Program-made: the position numbers and the translations under genes
NCBI RefSeq assembly: GCF_023638035.1
Contig: NZ_JAKRVX010000002.1
Span: forward strand, 248,001-312,000
Origin: Natronocalculus amylovorans
GTDB taxonomy: Archaea; Halobacteriota; Halobacteria; Halobacteriales; Haloferacaceae
Length of the DNA stretch: 64,000 bases
Reading direction: 5' to 3'
The notes under the pieces: generated by a model
The model's database searches: none
What the model saw: the letters and a program-made list of their open reading frames with translations, nothing else
Told to the model about the DNA's origin: nothing
Part shown: piece after piece, positions 39,589 to 42,100 of the stretch
Layout of the letters: each line of letters begins with the position of its first letter
How positions within the stretch are numbered: the first letter of the stretch is position 1

Positions 39589-39673
39589 GCGAGGGTGGCT
39601 GAGCTAGGTCAAAAGCGGCGGGCTTAAGACCCGCTCCCGTAGGGGTCCATGGGTTCGAATCCCATCCCTCGCA
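39589..39673 (+). tRNA. tRNA-Leu (anticodon UAA)
   Basis: 85 bases. Acceptor stem GCGAGGG/CCCTCGC with discriminator A, anticodon stem GCGGG/CCCGC with loop CTTAAGA (anticodon at 39625-39627), a long variable arm (CCCGTAGGGG) as expected for Leu, and TpsiC arm ATGGG-TTCGAAT-CCCAT. No intron and no encoded CCA. It reads UUA codons. Confidence 0.97.
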
Positions 39674-39717: not shown

Positions 39718-40437
39718 TCAGCAATCCTCACGAGTGAAGATGAGTTTGTGGCTGTTTTCGCTGAGCCATTGGTTATGCTCAACATAGTCAGTGTCATGCC
39801 GTTCAACAATAAACCAGAACCGATCGCTGTGATTTGCTTCTAGACGGTGTGATAGTTCGTGGACGACCACGTAGCGAAGCACCGCTGGTGGTGCCATGAT
39901 CAGTCGCCAATTAAGTGAGATCGTCCCGGTCGATGAGCAGCTACCCCACTTTGTACGTTGATTCCGAACTTCGAGTCGACGATATTGAACACCCATCTCC
40001 GCAGCAATCTCAGTTGCATGGGTTTCAAACGTATTTCGAGCAGTTCGTCGGTACAGCGTCTCAACTGCTCGCTTGACGCTTGTGTGGTTGACATGGTGGG
40101 CTGCAAGCCTGAGTTCACGTCTTGCGGGATCAACGACCGAGTACGATCGTGTCTCGATGATAATCGTATGTGGTATTCCCCGATACGGTAACGTTGCACC
40201 ACACTTGAATATTCGATCGGGAAGGCGTGTGGAAAGTTGACTGAAATGAGCGTCTTTTTCCAGCACCCATGCTGCGTTTGCCCGCAGAACTGCCTCTGGA
40301 TCTCTTGTGCTGTCCAGCGGAAGTATAACCACAACTCCGCGAAGATCAACACGAATCTGGGCGTGTTTGGCACGGGCGCTCTCGCGGACAGTGTAGTCGA
40401 TTGGTGTGTCAAGAAGTAGTATTTGCAGTCCAGTCAT
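39718..40437 (-). CDS. YgjP/SprT-like zinc metallopeptidase (DUF45, M48 relative)
   Basis: 239 residues from the ATG at 40437. HELSHRLEANHSDRFW gives HExxH plus a downstream His, the DUF45/YgjP zinc site. Also typical are RNQRTKWGSCSSTGTISLNWRL just before it. Cytosolic. A 21-codon extension upstream to 40500 is read but has no function that I see. Role in the cell unknown; family proteins bind DNA or assist protease function. Confidence 0.85.
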   Translation of the reverse strand: MTGLQILLLDTPIDYTVRESARAKHAQIRVDLRGVVVILPLDSTRDPEAVLRANAAWVLEKDAHFSQLSTRLPDRIFKCGATLPYRGIPHTIIIETRSYSVVDPARRELRLAAHHVNHTSVKRAVETLYRRTARNTFETHATEIAAEMGVQYRRLEVRNQRTKWGSCSSTGTISLNWRLIMAPPAVLRYVVVHELSHRLEANHSDRFWFIVERHDTDYVEHNQWLSENSHKLIFTREDC

Positions 40438-40738
40438 GAATACAGCGTAAATATGTTGGCTAGCCAATACGAGGTTCGGTCCGGTAGTAAAAATAAACAA
40501 TAGACAATAAAATGATAATTATTTTTACACGCTCAGGAGTATCACTCAAACTAAGCAGATCGTTGTGTAGGAAAAAAGGCCGTTTGCCCACGCGAGAGAA
40601 ATGGTGGGTCGCGTAGGCAAACAGCCCATTGGTCCCCGCTGACGCTTCGGCCCTCCAAGCGAAGCGTCATATGATACAACCGAGTGTAGTAACTTAAATA
40701 TGCCGGGTAGATTATGACAATAATAATAAATAAATGGG
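40438..40738. other. Intergenic region holding the hairpin element
   Basis: 301 bases without a convincing gene. It contains the candidate RNA above and AT-rich flanks with a possible plus-strand TATA box near 40514-40528. I see no repeat copy elsewhere in the window. Confidence 0.5.
40571..40671 (-). ncRNA. Candidate structured small RNA (two hairpins and U-tract)
   Basis: Minus strand. A TATA-like ATATTTAAGT (40692-40701) sits about 26 bases before the first hairpin (stem TGACGCTTCG/CGAAGCGTCA, 40669-40640, ten perfect pairs, loop CTTGGAGGGC). The second hairpin spans 40626-40578, with 16 of 18 positions paired, and is followed by six T. This is the arrangement of promoter, structured RNA and terminator. 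It lies between the monooxygenase stop and the metallopeptidase start; a 27-codon frame starting at 40629 is an alternative reading. No family recognised. Confidence 0.45.
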
Positions 40739-42100
40739 TTAGAGGGGTTGGTTAGCAGGGTGATCAGACCGCAATCGAGCGTTTCCAGCACCAAATATGG
40801 ATTCTCGAAGCGTAGACCCTTTGTAGGCCTCTCGAACAAGTCCCCGCGATCGAAGTTCAGGGACAACCAGATCAACGAAATCAGTCAGACTGTCCGGCCG
40901 AACAACCTCCTTAATATTGAATCCGTCAATTCCGACTTCTGTGAACCAGTGTTCGAATTCATCCGCAATCGTGTCTGGCGTGCCAACAATGATCGGAGAA
41001 GTTGAGCCAAGTCCAGAGAACTGTGCAACCTCACGAACGGTCCACTCTTTGTCCGGATCGGATTTCGTGAATGCGTTCATCGTGCCTTGGATTGCATCCG
41101 TTTCGATGTGTTCGATCTTCTGGTCAGGGTCTAGCGCAGACAGATCCATGTCAATAAATCCCGAAAGTAGCGCGAGCGTGCCGTCAACATCAATTTGGGC
41201 TTTGTATGATTCATACTTCGCCTGTGCGATTTCTTCGGTCTCACCGACGATCGGAACAATTCCAGGGAAGAACGCAATCGAACCCGGGTCGCGACCGAAT
41301 TTTGCCACCCGGTCACGCATATCGTCCATGTAGTCACGAACACCGCGCTCCGTTGGTTGGCTTACGAAGACCGCCTCTGCATTCTTGGCGGCAAAGTCAC
41401 GGCCGCGGTCGGAGGAGCCAGCCTGATACAAAACAGGCGTTCGTTGCGGTGATGGCTCACATCCATGTGGCCCAGGTACTGAAAAGAACTCACCCGCAAA
41501 GTCGATCGATTGTACTTTGCTTGGATCCGTGTAAATGCCTGCGTCTGGATCCCGACGGACCGCATCATCATCCCATGAGTGCTCCCAGAGCGCGTAACAA
41601 ACGTCCATGAACTCGTCTGCTCGATCATACCGGGTTTGTTTATCCATGCGGCCGTCCAGGCCGAGATTTGCGGCTGCGGATTCGAGATACGAGGTGACAA
41701 TATTGAACGCAATCCGGCCATCGGTGAGATGGTCAAGCGTAGATAGCTCTCTGGCAAGCTGGTATGGGTGTGTGTACGTAGTTGATTTGGTGATTGCGAA
41801 TCCAAGATTGTCGGTTACCTCAGCCATTGCAGGAACGAGGTATGCAGGATCGTTGGACGGTGTCTGGATCGCTTTTTCGATCGCTGTCGAATGGTCTCCA
41901 CCATACACGTCATATATCCCACGGACATCAGCAAAAAAGACGGCATCAAACCCGCCGCGTTCTGCGGTTCGTGCGACTTCCGTCCAGTACGATCGATCGC
42001 GATAGCGATGTGATTGATCGCCTGGGTAGCGCCACGAGCCGATCGAGACGTGTTCAACCGAGTTCATCGTGAACAGGTTGAGATGTAGATAGTCACTCAT
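40739..42100 (-). CDS. Flavin-dependent monooxygenase, NtaA/SnaA/DszA family (LLM class)
   Basis: 453 residues, luciferase-like TIM barrel: HVSIGSWRYPGDQSHRY, FDAVFFADVRGIYDVY, TDNLGFAITKSTTYTHPYQLARELSTLDHLTDGRIAFNIVTS, and RTPVLYQAGSSDRGRDFAA. These are the markers of FMN-dependent monooxygenases that act on nitrilotriacetate, dibenzothiophene and related substrates. Substrate unknown; the flavin reductase partner is not nearby. Could instead use F420, whose synthesis genes lie 10-15 kb away, but this family is FMN-based. Confidence 0.87.
   Translation of the reverse strand: MSDYLHLNLFTMNSVEHVSIGSWRYPGDQSHRYRDRSYWTEVARTAERGGFDAVFFADVRGIYDVYGGDHSTAIEKAIQTPSNDPAYLVPAMAEVTDNLGFAITKSTTYTHPYQLARELSTLDHLTDGRIAFNIVTSYLESAAANLGLDGRMDKQTRYDRADEFMDVCYALWEHSWDDDAVRRDPDAGIYTDPSKVQSIDFAGEFFSVPGPHGCEPSPQRTPVLYQAGSSDRGRDFAAKNAEAVFVSQPTERGVRDYMDDMRDRVAKFGRDPGSIAFFPGIVPIVGETEEIAQAKYESYKAQIDVDGTLALLSGFIDMDLSALDPDQKIEHIETDAIQGTMNAFTKSDPDKEWTVREVAQFSGLGSTSPIIVGTPDTIADEFEHWFTEVGIDGFNIKEVVRPDSLTDFVDLVVPELRSRGLVREAYKGSTLRESIFGAGNARLRSDHPANQPL

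Follow-up and report, generated by a model that had tools for sequence, protein, structure and literature searches.

A predicted small-RNA gene in Natronocalculus amylovorans belongs to an order-wide haloarchaeal family with a nearly invariant 5′ module

INTRODUCTION

Haloarchaeal small RNAs are said to evolve fast, and 22 of the 27 Haloferax volcanii small RNAs that were deleted are confined to that species (PMC3956466). The H. volcanii RNA hts10 (HVO_2213s), detected by sequencing and listed as 161 nt at positions 2078656-2078816 on the forward strand of the chromosome, was reported to occur in 18 other haloarchaeal genomes, and its deletion leads to mild growth effects (PMC3956466). Two H. 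volcanii RNAs of 111 nt have also been described: sRNA_61, which shows high ribosome occupancy and contains an open frame of 32 aa that lacks a stop codon (PMC12482152), and STRG.2577.4, the most abundant small RNA (PMC12482152; PMC5892119).

Here, we analyzed an intergenic element in the window, a 64,000-nucleotide stretch of the N. amylovorans genome, for which a preliminary description had proposed a new structured small RNA. Sequence analysis indicates that the element is a genuine gene for a small RNA, equipped with an archaeal promoter and a terminator of its own and with predicted ends. The RNA is a member of an existing, unstudied small-RNA group, not of an unseen class, and the order-wide extent of the family was previously unrecognized.

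RESULTS

Architecture of the element

The element occupies the minus strand between two genes, with its own promoter located after the luciferase-like gene (Table 1). The promoter consists of a BRE-like CCGGCA (40706-40701) followed by a TATA-like TATTTAAG (40700-40693), with TTTAAGT at 40698-40692. Comparison of 132 distinct homologous upstream regions revealed that CGGTANNTTTAAGT is fixed at -37 to -24 before GACGC, a spacing that predicts a transcript starting with hairpin 1. In this hairpin, TGACGCTTCG (40669-40660) and CGAAGCGTCA (40649-40640) form a perfect 10-pair inverted repeat around the loop CTTGGAGGGC. The repeat arms of hairpin 2 (40626-40609 and 40595-40578) are 18 nt long and 89% complementary; both of their mismatches are G-U pairs in RNA, giving 19 continuous pairs (40627-40577) around the loop CCCACCATTTCTC. 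The promoter, the perfect ten-pair hairpin, the second hairpin with two mismatches in its 18-nt arms, and the six T noted in the preliminary description are all present in the sequence, and the whole promoter-to-terminator unit measures about 95 nt.

The minimum free energy of the element is -51.3 kcal/mol, compared with a shuffled mean of -32.2 (z = -6.1), and none of 200 dinucleotide shuffles was equally stable; the plus-strand fold is weaker (z = -3.5). A chance origin is excluded mainly by the conservation across genomes, together with the constant distance of the promoter in the 132 homologues. The promoter spacing, the fold, and the covariation described below support the earlier proposal of a transcribed, terminated, and structured RNA, and the element is probably transcribed in N. 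amylovorans. Two other features lie near the downstream gene: the AT-rich sequences GTAAAAATAA/TTATTTTTAC (window 40487-40528), just upstream of the YgjP-like gene, which form a perfect inverted repeat of 10 bp and may be an operator, and a plus-strand tRNA gene (Rfam, 58.9 bits; window 39589-39673) just past it.

Table 1. Features of the element and its flanking genes in the window
Feature	Position	Strand	Basis or remark
Luciferase-like monooxygenase gene (PF00296), upstream of the RNA	40739..42100	-	Conserved type-B neighbour
BRE/TATA promoter element CCGGCATATTTAAGT	40692..40706	-	Sequence and homologue upstream regions
Transcription start, predicted	40669..40672	-	Inferred from TATA spacing
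Hairpin 1, TGACGCTTCG-CTTGGAGGGC-CGAAGCGTCA	40640..40669	-	Inverted repeat, fold, compensatory stem changes in divergent paralogues
Hairpin-1 loop CUUGGAGGGC, invariant, GGAGG inside	40650..40659	-	Main copies and divergent paralogues
G-rich single-stranded linker GCGGGGACCAAT	40628..40639	-	Alignment of main copies
Hairpin 2, 19 pairs, terminator-like; variable sequence, conserved pairing	40577..40627	-	Fold and covariation
T6 tract, presumed terminator and RNA 3′ end	40572..40577	-	Sequence
YgjP-like metallopeptidase gene (PF01863), downstream of the RNA	39718..40437	-	Not a conserved neighbour

Conservation and distribution of the 5′ module

The first ~40 nt of the RNA are almost invariant in practically all salt-loving archaea examined. 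Of 292 near-complete genomes of Halobacteriales, 290 contain the 54-nt hairpin-1/linker module, GACGCTTCGCTT(T)GGAGGGCCGAAGCGTCAGCGGGGACC, according to a covariance model; no match was obtained in about 240 other Halobacteriota sampled, and all 52 matches in the phylum sample fall within Halobacteriales. By BLAST, 55 of 60 relatives' genomes match, typically with 95-100% identity across one and the same stretch of 42 nt. Searching named genomes for a sequence pattern yielded more than 100 haloarchaeal loci, including one in Actinarchaeum halophilum; the pattern comprised 19 bases inside hairpin 1, where the loci are consequently skewed towards identity. It imposed no selection on the linker and downstream columns, and the BLAST and covariance-model searches required no exact identity. 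Alignment of 35 type-A sequences (defined below) spanning the order, including Actinarchaeum, gave 50 invariant columns, GACGCTTCGC(T)TTGGAGGGCCGAAGCGTCAGCGGGGACCAA.TCAGGGCGGC. The linker GCGGGGACC is unchanged in all 44 aligned main copies, and the loop TTGGAGGGCC is invariant in the main copies and the divergent paralogues alike.

The window genome contains exactly two copies. The second, at G000:C12:70352-70406, is of type A and has hairpin 1 and the linker in common with the window copy (match 70364-70406). Genomes outside the window's family mostly carry one copy, located upstream of one PadR-family gene, and those inside the family mostly carry two. The window copy is a type-B, family-level paralogue beside the luciferase-like gene, with the ancestral type A elsewhere in the genome. 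The RNA family is inherited through the haloarchaea, that is, the order Halobacteriales minus its deepest sampled families. No match was found in phage or viral contigs, and only two plasmid records matched, which together with the two genomic copies speaks against a mobile or repeat element; the many copies with mobile-element flanks that the preliminary description had considered were not found, and the neighbourhoods are conserved. Rfam 15 gave no match at the gathering score and no credible one at E values up to 10.

Compensatory changes in both hairpins

All 115 distinct hairpin-2 sequences, with 94 distinct arms, fold with 11-24 pairs. The median pairing energy of the arms with their own partners is -26.7 kcal/mol, compared with -14.8 kcal/mol for arms swapped between species. 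The arm-swap test was used in place of MAFFT and RNAalifold, which miss the hairpin 2 of type A owing to its variable arms and length. In the type-B hairpin 2, seven pairs are altered on both sides. Its loop sequence is not conserved among type-B homologues, which speaks against the CCCACC loop as the pairing element suggested earlier.

Hairpin 1 is nearly unvarying in the main copies, which are therefore uninformative on its pairing. Divergent extra copies were found on a Haloarcula plasmid, on pHLAC01, and in the genomes G020 and G079. Analysis of these paralogues revealed compensatory stem changes (UA to CG, CG to UA, and a both-arm deletion), so that compensatory changes in homologues, sought in the preliminary description, are present in both hairpins. 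Two hairpin-1 pairs show double changes, a level equalled in 5 of 500 shuffles and in none of the slid controls, in a small sample of nine divergent rows with both double changes coming from one sequence. The divergent copies retain the loop UUGGAGGGCC / TTGGAGGGCC, and the linker AGCGGGGACC is retained in all but the G079 copy. Since the loop and linker are kept and the stem changes, the loop and linker appear to be the primary constraint, with the stem serving as a scaffold. Divergent copies on megaplasmids or elsewhere (L269:4001-4110, L270:4000-4100, L271, L272, and L273) have extra bases before the loop or altered stems; the divergent extra copies are possibly specialized or decoy versions.

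Gene neighbourhoods and history

Type B follows the luciferase-like gene in several genera of the window's family, namely Halorubrum and relatives of it; the Haloferax type B sits elsewhere. The YgjP gene was found near none of the homologues, which removes the idea, raised in the preliminary description, that the RNA regulates the downstream metallopeptidase in cis.

Type A lies on the same strand as, and upstream of, a gene for a PadR-family protein of about 94 aa, with DUF7117 and FolD genes upstream. Sequence identity of the PadR-family protein is about 76-88% throughout the order, and its gene has its own conserved TATA promoter, after which comes a TCGACAGTAA-like motif (e.g., L003:2424-2708, minus strand, and homologues). 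The protein is a relative of RosR (match to hsRosR in the PDB, 2e-25), a RosR-like paralogue. Many genomes have an opposite-strand amphi-Trp domain gene between the type-A RNA and the PadR gene (e.g., L003:2936-3220); it is missing in others, pointing to repeated insertion or loss. In Halarchaeum, the PadR gene is upstream of and divergent from the RNA (L078 and L079; also L142). One genome (G022) has lost type A from the DUF7117-PadR interval and kept type B, and another (G005) has type A only; the copies therefore look interchangeable.

In the RpoB′ tree, two families without the RNA (f9 and f11) are sister to all other haloarchaea. Both possess DUF7117, with FolD beside it in one, and lack the RNA as well as this PadR orthologue, which places the appearance of the RNA and PadR on the same branch. 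This joint appearance is a single event, so that a functional link is only suggestive. DUF7117 was rejected as a partner of the RNA, as it is not co-inherited. Genomes of a further family (f2), which are reduced and incomplete, also lack both the RNA and PadR.

DISCUSSION

The element is very probably a genuine trans-acting noncoding RNA, and the trans action envisaged in the preliminary description is thus supported as probable. In the mechanism that we propose, the RNA would start directly at hairpin 1, whose loop would display UUGGAGGG, followed by the exposed linker GCGGGGACC, and hairpin 2 would only terminate the transcript and protect its 3′ end. The loop-plus-linker module would form a docking site in trans for an invariant partner, either a protein or the ribosome; the GGAGG of the loop could pair with the anti-Shine-Dalgarno CCUCC of 16S rRNA, and the RNA may act as a riboregulator or titrator, not via long antisense pairing. 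We consider this mechanism, in which a ~95-nt RNA docks through its loop and linker, somewhat the better bet, and we regard the chances as evenly balanced that the partner is an invariant protein or the ribosome rather than mRNAs bound by seed pairing. The GGAGG-type loop pointed out earlier does contain an invariant GGAGGG, and its match to the 16S 3′ end (GATCACCTCCT) amounts to 5 bp of complementarity. This pairing is at best suggestive and leaves the invariance of the linker unexplained. The best match to 23S rRNA, of 13 pairs, was rejected as chance-level (score of 32.5, compared with up to 31.0 in 20 shuffles), the 23S stretch being self-complementary.

The main rival is a base-pairing small RNA whose loop and linker would serve as short seeds for C-rich mRNA sites, altering translation or stability. 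The exposure of the G-rich elements fits such a role, and archaeal precedents exist in sRNA162 (PMC3510493) and SHOxi (cited in PMC12482152). However, the invariance spans loop and linker alike, and a scan of 40 genomes for perfect 12-13-nt complements of the linker found no conserved one beyond the gene itself, only sporadic matches at a level near that of the reversed-pattern control. Nor is there special complementarity to the adjacent PadR mRNA (mean z: linker, -0.2; loop, 0.3), and we judge seed pairing unlikely, though still a serious contender. A cis-acting element controlling the next gene, whether a leader, an attenuator, or a riboswitch-like terminator, would agree with the same-strand gene that follows at both loci (YgjP here, PadR at type A) and with the distance of 260-900 nt to PadR in most type-A loci. 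It is very improbable, as the gene following type B is not conserved, PadR has a promoter of its own, the opposite-strand amphi-Trp gene often intervenes, and PadR is placed upstream and divergent in Halarchaeum.

The perfect palindrome formed by TGACGCTTCG and CGAAGCGTCA, together with the origin of the element and the PadR orthologue on the same branch, could also be read as a DNA operator that lies at the start site and is recognized by the co-inherited PadR, with no RNA function. The loop and linker, dispensable for a palindrome, are nevertheless the most conserved parts, a covarying terminator hairpin comes next, and RNA from the syntenic H. volcanii locus was detected (PMC3956466), leaving very little probability for this reading. 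Least probable of all is a short protein-coding gene. We did not recover the 27-residue frame of the preliminary description in that form. In favour of coding, a 42-aa TTG ORF (40551-40679, with an ATG at 40670) runs through the element; there is also a 109-aa TTG frame. The ribosome occupancy and 32-aa frame of sRNA_61 would point the same way, sRNA_61 being a candidate match only. Against coding, the reading frame differs from homologue to homologue through a CTT/CTTT indel in the loop, whereas the nucleotide sequence is constant; most homologues lack a start codon (24 of the 132 upstream regions have an ATG close to the start); and the variable hairpin 2 would make up half of the protein.

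With a 5′ module that hardly varies across the order and usually occurs once per genome, this RNA stands at the opposite extreme to the fast-evolving haloarchaeal small RNAs and would be expected to serve a core function. That the docking RNA is a core noncoding component of haloarchaeal gene expression, binding a universal protein or the ribosome and having arisen with the PadR regulator at the origin of the main clade, is a tentative proposal, for which we see the chances as below even. The RNA can be studied in an existing genetic model, H. volcanii, and is well suited both to the definition of an Rfam family and to the search for a universal archaeal RNA-binding partner.

Comparison with the published RNAs indicates that hts10 is, by synteny, the H. 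volcanii counterpart. In three Haloferax species (L034, L042, and L112), the type-B gene order is E1alpha, AsnC-like, TrkA-N, a 78-aa AsnC-like gene, a gene of ~200 aa, the RNA, and a transducer. HVO_2209 is oadhA4 and HVO_2212 is a 78-aa protein; matched to this order, they place the RNA at HVO_2213s, in the same position between the HVO_2213 and HVO_2214 orthologues and in the orientation that the gene numbering implies. The hairpin-1/linker module, with the promoter in front of it, is common to the window copy and to the Haloferax copies from this position (L034 included). The listed length of hts10 is 161 nt, compared with the ~95 nt predicted for the window RNA from its promoter and terminator. 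The RNA is therefore only partly new in the sense of the preliminary description, its positional counterpart having been reported earlier, whereas the invariant core and its order-wide extent, the second paralogue, the covariation, and the function are not described there (PMC3956466). The second copy type could explain the mild phenotype of the hts10 deletion, since the deletion strain presumably retains a copy of type A.

sRNA_61 and STRG.2577.4, which are similar in length to the window RNA and are chromosomal or intergenic, could be the same RNA, and we regard them as a lead only. The type-A copy of Haloferax denitrificans (L088) contains a GTG-started frame of 32 codons without a stop. 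Among the trans-acting haloarchaeal small RNAs of Haloferax, SHOxi is a 254-nt RNA on pHV3 (PMC12482152), and sRNA132 likewise has two stems and a linker. However, sRNA132 is restricted to Haloferax and its linker is pyrimidine-rich (PMC6560208); the order-wide occurrence and G-rich linker of the window RNA rule out membership in that family. A possible functional analogue is rancRNA_s194, a 97-nt intergenic RNA of H. volcanii that binds ribosomes (PMC6104027) and, unlike the window RNA, is reported to lack conservation outside this species (PMC3956466). H225.2R, a 96-nt H. volcanii small RNA, was considered as a possible type-A counterpart. CsrB/RsmZ-like titrating RNAs carry repeated GGA motifs that are bound by CsrA/RsmA, and the RNA described here contains two GGA motifs, one in the loop and one in the linker.
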